Below are positions 19,460 to 26,470 of a DNA stretch of 64,000 nt, one piece after another; positions within the stretch are counted from its first letter, which is position 1; each line of letters begins with the position of its first letter. The stretch lies in NCBI RefSeq assembly GCF_000301055.1, contig NZ_JH932300.1, positions 62,001 to 126,000 of the forward strand. Reading direction: 5' to 3'. Source of the DNA: Falseniella ignava CCUG 37419 (GTDB lineage Bacteria; Bacillota; Bacilli; Lactobacillales; Aerococcaceae). Below the pieces are notes generated by a model, which was given only the letters and a program-made list of their open reading frames with translations, made no database searches and was not told where the DNA came from. The position numbers were made by a program, and so were the translations under genes.

Positions 19460-20293
19460 ATGAATATATTATTTTCTATTGATGAACGATTTGTCGAACC
19501 GATGCTGACGACATTATATTCTATTCGCATAAATAATCCACAACCACATTTCGATATTTTTGTTTTACAAAAACAACCTTTAGCGCAAAATCAACGGATC
19601 AGCCAATGGTGTGAAGCTTATCAGATGACGTACCACCCTATTTTAATTGATGCGGAAGCCTTTCAACATGCCCCGGTCCTAAAACACTGGAATGAGACAA
19701 TCTACTATCGACTGTTGGCGCACGATTATTTACCTCATCATTTAGAGCGAGTCTTATATTTAGATGCTGATATATTATGTATTAATGCGCTCGATTCATT
19801 GTATGATTTAGAAATGGGAGCTAACTATTACGCGGGAGCGAGCCATGGGCGATTAATTAATGAGACGAGGGAAAAATTTAATCGATTGCGTCTACAAAAT
19901 CCTCAGCTTGAAGAATATATTAATACAGGCGTATTATTAATTAATTTGGAAGCTTGCCGGCAGAATGTGTCAGATAAGGTGATTTTTGATTATATTGAGG
20001 CCAATCGGCGCCTATTACTTTTACCAGACCAAGACGTCTTAAATGGTCTGTACGGAGCCCATATTCATTTAATTCCAGATGAAATTTATAACTATGACGT
20101 TCGCTATCCAAAAGTGTATGAACTATTTAGCGAACATCCCATGACTGCTCAGCGCGTGATGCAAGAAACTGTCTTCTTGCACTATTGCGGCAAAGATAAG
20201 CCATGGGATGCTAAAACAAATAATGATTTTAATTTATTATACTTACATTACCAAGCAAAACGAGAACAACAACAAAAGTTATGGGTAGATTAA
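19460..20293 (+). CDS. Family 8 glycosyltransferase
   Basis: A 277-residue GT8 (GT-A fold) enzyme. The N terminus NILFSIDERFVEPMLTTLYSI is the nucleotide-sugar binding start; the metal-binding DxD is in RVLYLDADILC (~residue 95), followed by EYINTGVLLINL (~155), LPDQDVLNGLY and a C-terminal HYCGKDKPW. GT8 members in Firmicutes transfer glucose or galactose to lipopolysaccharide-like, teichoic or protein acceptors; the acceptor here is unknown. The start is the ATG at 19460 after AAGGAG; the frame is open further upstream through the fba terminator, which is not coding. It overlaps the convergent TraX-like gene by 15 bases. Confidence 0.88.
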   Translation: MNILFSIDERFVEPMLTTLYSIRINNPQPHFDIFVLQKQPLAQNQRISQWCEAYQMTYHPILIDAEAFQHAPVLKHWNETIYYRLLAHDYLPHHLERVLYLDADILCINALDSLYDLEMGANYYAGASHGRLINETREKFNRLRLQNPQLEEYINTGVLLINLEACRQNVSDKVIFDYIEANRRLLLLPDQDVLNGLYGAHIHLIPDEIYNYDVRYPKVYELFSEHPMTAQRVMQETVFLHYCGKDKPWDAKTNNDFNLLYLHYQAKREQQQKLWVD

Positions 20294-21013
20294 GTAGCGA
20301 GCCAAACCTGCTAAAATAATTAAATGAATTGGGTAAAATAAGTAAAATAGTTTTGAGTTGAATTTACCCCGCTGTCCATTATAAAAGTAAATCAAAATAA
20401 AGCTTGGTAAAGCGTAAAAATTATAGCCTAAGTAAATGAAGCTTCCAGCTAGCACTTGATAAAGACGTTCGGCTTTAAAAAGATACAATACAACAATCAA
20501 TAAAACACCAAAAATATCATAATCTGTGTTTAAAAAATAACTGAGTGCGCAAGTGGAAGAAATAATCGCTACTTGAATTAGTGTGTTGGCTTTAAAATGT
20601 TTCATACCGGCCAATGTGAGTAATCCTAGAAAGAGCGTAAAGTATACATTTTGGGCAGAAAAATCAAAAATCACTTGCGATCTGGCAAGATCAAAGGGGA
20701 TCTCAGATAATAAAGCGAATATCCCTAAACGAAGTAGGTAACGTTGGATATTACGAGTATGAATAGCACCTTGAACAATTAGAAAGCAAAAAATAGGGAA
20801 GGCCAACCGGCCAATAGCACGCGTAGCATAGTAAATCTGTTGCCAAGTGGCAGCAGATTGAGCGTCCGCAGATGTTATGCCTATCAATTGAAAATTGATC
20901 CATGGCAACAATAAAAAAGCCCCCACATGATCAATCAACATTGACAGCATTCCGACAATTTTAAGGGTAGTACCGCTGATTGGAGAGCGATCTGTTAAGT
21001 GCGATGAATTCAT
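20279..21013 (-). CDS. TraX-like multispanning membrane protein
   Basis: A 244-residue membrane protein with about seven hydrophobic segments. The N-terminal TLKIVGMLSMLIDHVGAFLL and the RAIGRLAFPIFCFLIVQGAIHTRNIQRYLLRLGIFALLSEIPFDL block are the TraX signature. In the F plasmid, TraX acetylates the pilin N terminus; chromosomal homologues in Firmicutes are numerous and uncharacterised, and probably act as acyltransferases on surface molecules (inference). There is nothing conjugative nearby, so the plasmid name should not be over-read. It converges on the GT8 gene with a 15-base overlap; surface glycan modification would link the two. Confidence 0.85.
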   Translation of the reverse strand: MNSSHLTDRSPISGTTLKIVGMLSMLIDHVGAFLLLPWINFQLIGITSADAQSAATWQQIYYATRAIGRLAFPIFCFLIVQGAIHTRNIQRYLLRLGIFALLSEIPFDLARSQVIFDFSAQNVYFTLFLGLLTLAGMKHFKANTLIQVAIISSTCALSYFLNTDYDIFGVLLIVVLYLFKAERLYQVLAGSFIYLGYNFYALPSFILIYFYNGQRGKFNSKLFYLFYPIHLIILAGLARYLIYP

Positions 21014-21158
21014 CTAAGTGATCCTTTCTTTTAAATTACATCGTATTAATAAGTGAGCTTTATTATAGCAATGATTGAATAGGTATATCAACTTTATATT
21101 TATAGCCAAATGTGTTAAAATCGATGAGCGATATGAATGAAATGGAGGGGAGCGCAAA

Positions 21159-21986
21159 ATGGAAGTACAATACAAAGAATGTGAGCATCACGTATTTGCT
21201 GCATTAACAGAGCATATGATTGAGCATCGTCAGTATTCAATCCTTCAAGAAACCCTTCACCAAGCAGATGCCAAGAAGTGGCAAAAGCAAATCACCTTAA
21301 CGCAACTTGCGCAAGCATATCTCACCAATGATTTAGAGTCAATCCGTGAATTAGCCGTGGTGTTAGAACGAAATTACTTGCTAGCACCTTCGCAATTAGA
21401 ATTAAGAATCTACAGCTATATTCACCATATGAATCAACTCTATGAGCGTCAAGCTTGGACAGACTATTTCAGAGCAATCTCACCAGTTATGGTAGATCTC
21501 TTTGCATTATTAATTGAACGGCATGCCATTCCGGAATTGAGTCATTATATGGAACCTGTTATTAAACCAACTGATGATGGGCGCCAGATTTATAAAGGTC
21601 TTCATTGGATTCAAGAAAAAATTGAGGCGGATGATAATGTAATCCGCAAAACATGGCAAAATTATTATGGTGATTATTTTAACTATGGCCATTATGTGTC
21701 TTCGAGCCATTTAATTAAATTGATGCAAGATACAATGGATCCGTCCTTTGTAACCCCTGCACAAACATTGCGTCGAATTGAAAAAGATATACGTAATATC
21801 GTTGCGCACGAAGCCATTTACTTGTCGCCAGAGCGGATTTATCACCGGAGCTTAATGACAGCGGAAGAGATTCACCAACTGTTGCATCATTTATGTCAGC
21901 AAGCTCAATTGAATGATCCAAGACAGATAGGTATTTTAAGTAATATTGACGAAGAATTGCGCACGTCGATACATCAAGATTTTTAA
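21159..21986 (+). CDS. Orphan HEPN protein resembling the C-terminal part of Csm6
   Basis: A 275-residue, all-helical soluble protein. Residues 212-217 read RNIVAH, the R-X4-H catalytic motif of HEPN ribonucleases, set in EKDIRNIVAHEAIYLSPERIYHRSLMTAEEIHQLLHHL. That layout (charged helix, RNxxAHE, short strand, helix) is what I recall from the HEPN domain of type III CRISPR Csm6. The part before it looks like helical linker. No CARF domain with its Rossmann glycine motifs is visible, so it would lack the usual cyclic-oligoadenylate sensor. No CRISPR array or cas gene is in the window. It is followed after 16 bases by murA, probably in one transcript. Enzyme activity is an inference. Confidence 0.6.
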   Translation: MEVQYKECEHHVFAALTEHMIEHRQYSILQETLHQADAKKWQKQITLTQLAQAYLTNDLESIRELAVVLERNYLLAPSQLELRIYSYIHHMNQLYERQAWTDYFRAISPVMVDLFALLIERHAIPELSHYMEPVIKPTDDGRQIYKGLHWIQEKIEADDNVIRKTWQNYYGDYFNYGHYVSSSHLIKLMQDTMDPSFVTPAQTLRRIEKDIRNIVAHEAIYLSPERIYHRSLMTAEEIHQLLHHLCQQAQLNDPRQIGILSNIDEELRTSIHQDF

Positions 21987-22002: not shown

Positions 22003-23265
22003 ATGAAAAAGTTGATTATACGCGGTGGAAATCCACTGAATGGAGAAATTACAATTAACGGTGCCAAAAATAGTACTGTGGCTTTAATTCCAGCAGCTAT
22101 TTTGGCTGATTCTGAAGTTGTCTTAGAGGGTGTACCAGATATTCAAGACGTGCACTCATTGATTGAAATATTGAATGATTTTCACGTTAAAACAGAATTC
22201 AAAGATAACGTATTACGAATCGACCCGACAGAAATTCAATCCATTCCGATGCCAACAGGTAAAATTCAAAGTTTAAGAGCGTCATATTACTTTATGGGGT
22301 CACTTTTATCTAAGTTCGGTGAGGGAGTCATTGGATTACCTGGCGGTTGTGTCATAGGGCCTCGCCCGATTGACCAACATTTGAAAGCTTTTCGCTCTTT
22401 AGGCGCACAAGTTGATGATCAGTACGGTGTCATTACCTTGACATCGCCAAATGGACTAAAAGGCAACCGAATTTATATGGACGTCGTGTCTGTTGGAGCA
22501 ACAATTAATGCTATTTTAGCTGCTGTTAAAGCAGAAGGTAAGACTATTATCGAGAATGCGGCAAGAGAACCTGAAATTATTGATGTTGTCACATTACTGA
22601 ATAAAATGGGAGCCAACATTCGTGGTGCTGGAACCAACGTAATCCGGATTGAAGGTGTGAAAGAATTAACAGGTACCAATCATACGATTATCCCTGACCG
22701 TATCGAAGCCGGGACGTATATTTCTTTAGCAGTAGCTATGGGAGAGAAAGTCCGGATTAATAACGTGATTTATGAACATATTGAAAGTTTTATTGCGAAA
22801 TTAGATGAGATGGGCGCACGAATGACGATTGGCGAAGATTCGATCGATATCGAGCGCACAGATGAGCTCAATATGGTTAACATTAAGACCTTACCATATC
22901 CTGGTTTTGCAACTGATTTACAACAACCTTTAACTGCATTATTGCTGAAGACGCGCGGAGAAGGGACCATTATGGATACAATTTACCCACAACGCGTGAA
23001 GCATATTCCAGAACTAAATCGAATGGGAGCAGATATTCGTGTCGATGGCGATATTATTCGCCTAAAAGGCCCTTGCAAGCTGACCGGAGCTCCGGTTGTT
23101 GCAAGTGACTTACGAGCAGGAGCTTGTCTTGTCATCGCAGGTCTCATGGCTGAGGGAGAGACGGTGATTACTGGAGTTGACCATATTTTAAGAGGCTATG
23201 CGCATATTGTTGATAAATTAAAAGCAATCGGCGCGGATATTGAGATGATTGAAGAGGACGAATAA
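22003..23265 (+). CDS. murA: UDP-N-acetylglucosamine 1-carboxyvinyltransferase
   Basis: A 420-residue EPSP-synthase-fold enzyme that transfers enolpyruvate from PEP to UDP-GlcNAc, the first committed step of peptidoglycan synthesis. The N terminus [27 protein letters not shown] and the catalytic loop [15 protein letters not shown] (~residue 115) with the fosfomycin-target cysteine are intact. [18 protein letters not shown] closes the C terminus. Position next to fba and rho matches the second Firmicutes paralogue (MurZ/MurAB); the other copy is expected elsewhere. AAGGGAG precedes the ATG. Confidence 0.95.
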
Positions 23266-23296: not shown

Positions 23297-24565
23297 ATGA
23301 GCGATGAATTCTCCTTAGAAACGTTACTCAATAAAGAAGTGAAAGAACTCTATAATTATGCGAAAGAGTTGGAAATTCCTAATTATAGTGAATTAAATAA
23401 AAAAGAATTAGCACTCGCAGTAATGCGTACGCAAGAAGAAAAACAAGGCTTTTTCAATGTTGAAGGAGTCCTAGATATTATCCCTGGTGATAATTTCGGT
23501 TTTCTACGTCCGATTAACTATTCACCAAGTCAAGAAGATATTTATATTTCTAACTCTCAAATTCGTCGTTTTGATTTGAGAAATGGTGATAAAGTGGCAG
23601 GGCCAGCTCGTCCTGCCAAATCAAACGAACGTTATTATGGCTTAATGCAAGTCTCAACGGTTAATGGGAAAGATCCAGAATTAGCGAAGGAACGAGATCA
23701 CTTCCCGAGCCTGACACCACTGTATCCTGATGAGCAAATTAAATTAGAGTATCAAGTCAATGTGTTAACCAATCGGATGATTGATATTGTATCACCCGTT
23801 GGATTTGGACAACGTGGGTTGATTGTATCGCCACCGAAGGCCGGTAAGACATCGACTTTAAAAGAAATCGCGAATGGAATTGCAACCAATTACCCAGATG
23901 TCGAGTTATTAGTGCTTTTAATCGACGAACGTCCCGAGGAAGTGACCGATATTGAACGTTCAGTAAGAGGCGAAGTTATTTCGTCAACCTTTGACCAAAA
24001 ACCTGAAAATCATATTCGAATTGCGGAACTCGTTTTAGATCGGGCAATGCGACTGGTAGAAGATGGACGAGATGTTGTAATTCTAATGGATAGTATTACT
24101 CGCTTAGCTCGAGCATACAACTTAGTAGTCAAACCGAGTGGGCGAACATTAAGTGGTGGTTTAGACCCGGCTTCGTTTTATTTCCCAAAACGCTTCTTTG
24201 GAGCGGCTCGCAATATTGAAGACGGTGGCTCACTGACTATTTTAGCGACTGCTTTAGTTGATACGGGAAGCCGGATGGACGATATCATTTATGAAGAATT
24301 TAAAGGGACCGGGAATATGGAGTTGCACCTGTCACGTCAGTTAGCGCAGCGACGTATTTTCCCTGCGATTGATATTCAACGTTCAGGTACGCGAAAAGAA
24401 GAACTATTAATGATGCCGGAACAGCTAGAATCGATTTGGAATTTCCGTCGAATGATGACCGGTGATTCGCTAGATTATACCGATCAATTTGTTAATATGT
24501 TGCGGAATACAGCGAATAATGAAGATTTCTTTGCACAAATGAATCAACTAACTCAAATGAAATAA
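23297..24565 (+). CDS. rho: Transcription termination factor Rho
   Basis: A 422-residue hexameric RNA-dependent ATPase. Domains in order: N-terminal helical Rho_N ([28 protein letters not shown]), cold-shock-like RNA-binding domain ([16 protein letters not shown], ~residues 60-130), and the RecA-type motor with Walker A PPKAGKTS (~residue 180), Walker [17 protein letters not shown] and Q-loop region [21 protein letters not shown]. The ATG at 23297 with an AGAGG site is preferred over an in-frame TTG inside murA. It ends just before a perfect palindromic terminator. Confidence 0.96.
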
Positions 24566-24570
24566 TAAGG

Positions 24571-24592
24571 CGACGGTACCGTCGTCTTTTTT
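24571..24592 (+). terminator. Rho-independent terminator after rho
   Basis: The palindrome CGACGGTACCGTCG (24571-24584) is followed by TCTTTTTT. Confidence 0.8.
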
Positions 24593-25770: not shown

Positions 25771-25782
25771 GTGATGAATAAA

Positions 25783-26235
25783 ATGGCAAAAAAAGATAAA
25801 ACAAATGTAATGCGAATATTAGATCAACAACGTCTGGACTATGATGCATATCAATTTGAAGGTGATACTCCTTCTATCCCCGATGCCCCAATCTATAAAA
25901 CGTTGGTAACCGTTGGGAAGTCAAAGGAACACTATGTCTTTGTAATTCCACTCGATTGTGAGTTGGATCTCAAGAAAGCAGCCCAAGTCGTGGGTGAGAA
26001 GAGTATCCATATGATTAAAGAGAAAGAATTATTACCTTTAACTGGCTATGTGCACGGAGGGTGCTCGCCAATCGGGATGAAAAAACACTTCGTGACAATT
26101 CTTGATGATTCGGCGAAGACACTTGATAAAATAATTTTTAGTGGTGGAAGAATTAAATTTTCAGTTGGGATGAAACCAGACCAATTACTAGAACTTGTAA
26201 ACGGACAATATGGCAATGTAGCTTTAGAGCATTGA
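25783..26235 (+). CDS. ybaK: YbaK/EbsC-type Cys-tRNA(Pro) deacylase
   Basis: A 150-residue editing-domain protein. YbaK removes cysteine mis-attached to tRNA-Pro. The pattern YKTLVTVGKSKEHYVFVIPLDCELDLKKAAQVVGEKSIHMI, then LTGYVHGGCSPIGMKK around residues 95-110 (the GGxSP loop, here GGCSP) and FSGGRIKFSVGMKPDQLLELVNG, is diagnostic. The ATG at 25783 has AGGTG nine bases upstream; two earlier in-frame starts overlap that site. It ends with TGA. Cotranscribed with the peptidase and ydbC. Confidence 0.92.
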   Translation: MAKKDKTNVMRILDQQRLDYDAYQFEGDTPSIPDAPIYKTLVTVGKSKEHYVFVIPLDCELDLKKAAQVVGEKSIHMIKEKELLPLTGYVHGGCSPIGMKKHFVTILDDSAKTLDKIIFSGGRIKFSVGMKPDQLLELVNGQYGNVALEH

Positions 26236-26248
26236 AAGGATAGAAGAG

Positions 26249-26470
26249 ATGGCAGAATTTAGTTTTGAAATTCAAGAGCACGTCGGTGTATTATCGGAAA
26301 AACCGAACGGTTGGTCTAAAGAATTAACCCGCGTTTCTTGGAATGGGCGCGAAGCAAAGTATGATATTCGTGACTGGAGTTCGGACTATTCAAAAATGGG
26401 GAAAGGAATTACCTTTACTGAAGAAGAATTACATAGTTTATATAATATATTAGGCGAATTATTTGACTAG
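26249..26470 (+). CDS. YdbC-like PC4 family ssDNA-binding protein
   Basis: A 73-residue protein of the PC4/p15 fold. The conserved core GWSKELTRVSWNGREAKYDIRDWS...KMGKGITFTEEEL is present; the family binds single-stranded DNA or RNA as a dimer, as shown for Lactococcus YdbC. The ribosome-binding site GAAAGGATAG overlaps the ybaK end, and patB begins 24 bases after its stop, so it sits mid-operon. Cellular role is not established. Confidence 0.88.
   Translation: MAEFSFEIQEHVGVLSEKPNGWSKELTRVSWNGREAKYDIRDWSSDYSKMGKGITFTEEELHSLYNILGELFD

Follow-up and report, generated by a model that had tools for sequence, protein, structure and literature searches.

The window analysed here, a stretch of 64,000 nucleotides from Falseniella ignava CCUG 37419, carries on its forward strand (21159–21986) a gene for a Csm6-type HEPN protein of 275 residues that is devoid of a CARF domain. 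We consider it rather probable that this protein is a fixed chromosomal relative of Csm6, likely an RNase domesticated for the control of growth or envelope stress, and that it does not take part in CRISPR immunity.

Profile matches and predicted fold

The open reading frame starts with ATG behind a GGAGGGG ribosome-binding site, and its stop codon ends at 21986, leaving a gap of 16 nt before the start of murA at 22003, as given in a preliminary description of this DNA. The Csm6-type HEPN assignment made there agrees with Pfam, PADLOC and NCBIfam profiles and with the predicted fold. The Pfam family PF09659 (Cas_Csm6_HEPN) covers residues 83–247 with an E-value of 4.6e-16 and a score of 59.6 bits, above its cut-off of 23.4 bits. 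The protein is also matched by the PADLOC CARF_HEPN (E 1.4e-25) and Csm6 models and by the NCBIfam Csm6 model TIGR02672 (E 3e-20), all of them over the part that follows CARF; the profiles align from about residue 14. Of the 433 positions of TIGR02672, the match takes in only those from 187 onward, which means that the protein has no CARF part, as the preliminary description had it. Of the features by which Csm6 is defined, the protein thus has neither the N-terminal CARF domain nor a score at the equivalog level of TIGR02672 (72.7 vs. 150 bits), nor is its gene, which precedes murZ-rho, associated with a Cas10/Csm locus. It does have the HEPN helical fold, recognized both by PF09659 and by comparison of the model with Csm6 HEPN chains (Z 16–20), and the R-X4-6-H motif that characterize the Csm6 branch of the HEPN superfamily. 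A Pfam match to the Death effector domain (E 0.0077) fails to reach its cut-off and probably reflects a chance resemblance between helices. A search of the PDB with the single sequence gave a chance hit only, and a profile search was needed to recover the Streptococcus mutans structure 4RGP (E 1.3e-4).

The AlphaFold2 model, built from 20 sequences, has a mean pLDDT of 92.3 and a pTM of 0.88. When it was submitted to Foldseek, every match at E ≤ 0.001 was a Csm6, with 4RGP at the top (E 1.7e-7). VIA-align likewise found 4RGP to be the closest solved fold (Z 20.4, 3.8 Å over 245 residues, model residues 10–272), followed by the Csm6 proteins of S. epidermidis (Z 17.5) and E. italicus (6TUG, Z 17.1, chain residues 176–430, i.e. 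after CARF) and by S. thermophilus Csm6' (Z 16.3, chain residues 169–386). Unrelated helical structures gave Z < 8, except for the archaeal protein 2q00 (Z 9.2), and a search of BFVD gave no viral structural relative below E 0.001. Since the matches are all Csm6 and lie well above the unrelated helical ones, the protein is, as modelled, Csm6 minus CARF, with a complete 6H+HEPN half, and the comparison with Csm6 structures proposed in the preliminary description did reveal a HEPN fold.

In the model, residues 1–75 (21159–21383) form helices 2–22, 26–37, 42–55 and 59–68, which align with the 6H linker of Csm6 chains just past CARF and contain few invariant residues in an alignment of 18 sequences. 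They are followed by the HEPN ribonuclease domain, approximately residues 76–253 (21384–21917; HEPN-only PDB matches span 76/77–252), from which a β-hairpin projects at residues 131–150 (21549–21608; strands 131–137 and 143–150) that is longer than in most full-length Csm6, most Csm6 rows of the alignment being gapped here. The helical N-terminal 150 residues had been expected to be the novel part of the protein; in Csm6 and 4RGP they have their counterpart in 6H and the initial HEPN helices, on which they superpose. Together with the start of the profile alignments this rules out a novel N-terminal domain. The motif R212-N213-I-V-A216-H217 (21792–21809), already noticed as RNIVAH, can be read directly in the open reading frame.

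Full-length type III-A Csm6 proteins (6TUG, S. thermophilus 8PE3, T. thermophilus 5FSH) have the 6H and HEPN fold and the R-X4-H motif in common with the window protein, which differs from them in the absence of CARF, in its location outside a CRISPR locus and in its sub-threshold equivalog score. The HEPN fold and the R-X4-6-H chemistry are also shared with HEPN-MNT toxin-antitoxin systems, but there is no nucleotidyltransferase partner among the neighbours examined (glycosyltransferase, TraX, murZ, rho, M42 peptidase, YbaK-type and PC4-type genes), the di-AMPylated HEPN toxin 7ae6 gives a weak helical match (Z 7.5), and the closest family is Csm6.

Conservation and the murZ locus

Orthologues of about 33–46% identity, or 35–46% by the pairwise search, were found in 25 Aerococcaceae genomes, including Ruoffia, Facklamia, Globicatella, Eremococcus, Ignavigranum, Hutsoniella, Vaginisenegalia, Fundicoccus and Dolosicoccus. 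Among the 36 genomes of the family sampled first, 18 carry the gene (that of the window counted) and 18 do not, and a wider draw of the order added seven carriers; the gene is therefore non-essential family-wide. All orthologues are 269–290 residues long and begin past the CARF boundary. R212 and H217, whose conservation had been put forward as a test, are invariant in two sets of 18 and 20 orthologues, as are N213 and A216, and all four are retained in the Csm6 and streptococcal rows. In the alignment of 18 sequences, R205, E208, K209 and E218 are invariant as well (R..EK..RN..AHE). The Aerococcaceae group is further marked by the signature YVSSSHLLK (YVSSSHLIK at residues 179–187 of the window protein) and by the long hairpin with its invariant Y145 and G147. 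Values of dN/dS for close orthologue pairs range from 0.09 to 0.17, and by this measure the gene is held under purifying selection; with the constant length, the intact motif and the promoter they rule out a pseudogene or a decaying Csm6 fragment.

The gene had been placed in an fba-murA interval. The murA side of this description stands, the murA2/murZ gene (UDP-GlcNAc enolpyruvyl transferase, PF00275, 22003–23265) being directly downstream in all 25 carriers with junction gaps of −4 to 39 nt (20 nt in L041). The fba, glycosyltransferase and TraX-like neighbours vary among carriers, which identifies murZ as the real partner. In the window, murZ is followed by rho (23297–24565; Rho_RNA_bind PF07497) and by an intrinsic-terminator-like hairpin at 24567–24588 (a stem of 9 pairs, then TTTTGATCTA), because of which HEPN, murZ and rho probably constitute one transcription unit. 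Upstream, a promoter-like site at 21093–21121 contains the extended −10 element TGTTAAAAT (21113–21121), 46 nt ahead of the start codon; of 22 orthologues, 15 have the motif TGnTA(A/T)AAT close to their start codon, where 0.49 would be expected from base shuffling. Beyond the presumed unit, a YbaK-type aminoacyl-tRNA editing gene and a 73-residue PC4-type gene (25771–26470) remain close to murZ in most carriers. On the other side, a TraX-family membrane protein gene (20279–21013, reverse strand) is divergent from the HEPN gene, which it also adjoins in two other genomes (L030 and L031); it is absent from this place in the other carriers compared.

An operon-specific RNase, which would set the levels of MurZ and Rho by cutting its own HEPN-murZ-rho mRNA or else further mRNAs of cell-wall genes, would suit a first gene with its own promoter and a tight murZ junction in every carrier, as well as the strong conservation around the active site, e.g. 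at residues 179–187, which suggests a defined substrate. However, leader and junction comparisons of four pairs gave no clear conserved RNA element besides the promoter and the ribosome-binding site, and rho is not always adjacent to murZ in other carriers; we regard such autoregulation as quite unlikely.

Non-carrier genomes have murZ and lack the HEPN gene. In the MurZ tree, all carriers fall inside one clade of 22 rows (support 100/98) that also contains 4 non-carriers, a topology that a single gain followed by a few losses would explain. HEPN and MurZ distances are correlated (Mantel r 0.77, with none of 5000 permutations reaching this value). These data bear on the reading of the protein as a stand-alone abortive-infection or dormancy toxin, in which phage or cell-wall stress would free the HEPN RNase to cut host RNA, the site before murZ providing low constant expression or MurZ acting as the restraint. 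HEPN RNases are frequently toxins or abortive-infection effectors (PMC3710099), the window protein is matched by the PADLOC defence library, its orthologues diverge much faster than MurZ (mean identity 40% vs. 80%), and repeated loss, as read from the MurZ tree, is also what a defence gene might show. Unlike mobile defence genes, though, it occupies a single fixed housekeeping locus with descent congruent with MurZ, no MNT antitoxin gene was found among the neighbours examined, and the phage and plasmid collections hold no record matching it, by which a mobile defence gene was rejected; the toxin is in our opinion an unlikely explanation.

CRISPR context and a second CARF-less group

The window's genome, 97.9% complete, gave no match to Cas1, to Cas10/Csm1 or to a Csm6-type CARF, and as regards type III these searches agree with the absence of CRISPR claimed earlier. 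The same applies more widely: 16 of the 18 carriers tested, that of the window included, lack both Csm1/Cas10 and a Csm6-type CARF, Csm1/Cas10 being present only in G001 and G010. With no CARF domain and no Cas10 cyclase found, canonical control of the window protein by cyclic oligoadenylate appears unlikely. A full-length Csm6 exists alongside the CARF-less gene in G001, G010 and G275, the first two being those with confirmed Csm1/Cas10, and cross-talk between the two proteins is possible there; as a general explanation, an effector still serving type III CRISPR in trans, e.g. paired with full-length Csm6, is nevertheless very improbable in view of the 16 carriers, and it is largely refuted for the window's genome. 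Over 395 sampled genomes of the order, those with the CARF-less form outnumber those with a complete Csm6 by about 5:1. Two genomes of the order (loci L137 and L139) each hold two tandem Csm6-type genes of about 387 and 429 residues resembling the S. thermophilus Csm6/Csm6' pair.

A second group of CARF-less Csm6-HEPN genes, of about 250–260 residues, occurs in one genus of the same order, inferred to be Streptococcus because the protein of locus L047 matches S. mutans 4RGP at E 4.6e-67. This structure, labelled "Csm6_III-A", is the precedent for a CARF-less "Csm6": like the window protein, its 257 residues comprise 6H and HEPN and no CARF, with RNPLAH as the motif, although the two are only about 13% identical in the structural alignment. 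The streptococcal family belongs to a separate clade that has neither the long hairpin nor YVSSSHLLK, and its genes lie in the deoD operon instead of before murZ, immediately downstream of deoD in all 18 genomes checked, with SIR2 following in 13 of them. In L047 (6973–8473) and L048 (7139–8638), the start codon of this 4RGP homologue overlaps the deoD stop (TAATG in L047), and a SIR2-family deacylase gene follows. Of the genomes G095 (L181) and G174 (L107/L178), one apparently has the gene broken by in-frame stops and the other has it shortened, so that some streptococci may manage without it. The lack of CARF in 4RGP was pointed out in 2016 by Niewoehner and Jinek (PMC4748810), and since S. 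mutans UA159 is described as having CRISPR types II-A and I-C only (PMC10434267), 4RGP probably does not belong to type III. In the tree, the two CARF-less groups emerge among CARF-bearing Csm6 as separate clades, each with 100/100 support; a common origin is neither established nor rejected (p-AU 0.153), and owing to long branches the branching order is unsure.

Proposed function and significance

The window protein, made up of the 6H linker and a catalytic HEPN domain, would most likely be a homodimer. TtCsm6 is a metal-independent single-strand RNA endonuclease whose HEPN dimers share a composite R-X4-6-H site; removal of its CARF domain left the activity unchanged in that assay (PMC4748810). 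The window protein is likely, by analogy, to be an endonuclease of this type that cuts RNA independently of CARF, with a composite R-X4-H site and without control by cyclic oligoadenylate. Transcription probably starts at the promoter of this gene and continues into murZ and, in the window, into rho. Other Csm6 proteins show little activity in the absence of cyclic oligoadenylate, and an unstimulated HEPN may therefore be nearly silent; it could be restrained by low expression, by specificity for its substrate or by a partner bound to the free 6H face. Because the surroundings of the active site are strongly conserved and 6H is conserved little, we favour a defined RNA substrate over a conserved partner of 6H; selected transcripts or tRNAs might be cut.

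Given the fixed coupling to murZ, envelope-linked growth control is our leading guess ahead of an abortive-infection toxin or operon autoregulation; the case for domestication is one of synteny and phylogeny. For the monitoring of envelope precursor state with MurA, which the preliminary description had suggested as a possibility, the data extend to the strict co-location with murZ. A further-reaching proposal, which we find doubtful but worth stating, is that a CRISPR effector nuclease, having lost its sensor, was taken over for good as a housekeeping RNase tied to the making of peptidoglycan precursors (MurZ) and to transcription termination (Rho), with MurZ or the free 6H domain taking part in a new switch, and that the streptococcal deoD-HEPN-SIR2 arrangement represents a second recruitment.

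Csm6 has been studied as an effector triggered by cyclic oligoadenylate and dangerous when uncontrolled. The window gene was not encountered in literature searches on Csm6 with Aerococcus, murA or deoD, or on Csm6 that is orphan or devoid of CARF. Here the sensor-less catalytic half of Csm6 is maintained by purifying selection beside a cell-wall gene across Aerococcaceae. Streptococcus widely carries a similar CARF-less gene, and its solved representative, 4RGP, still bears the label of a type III-A CRISPR protein, a likely misannotation. The path from a defence effector to a resident RNase thus becomes directly testable, and the findings suggest that a defence enzyme has turned resident in a family mostly without type III CRISPR.
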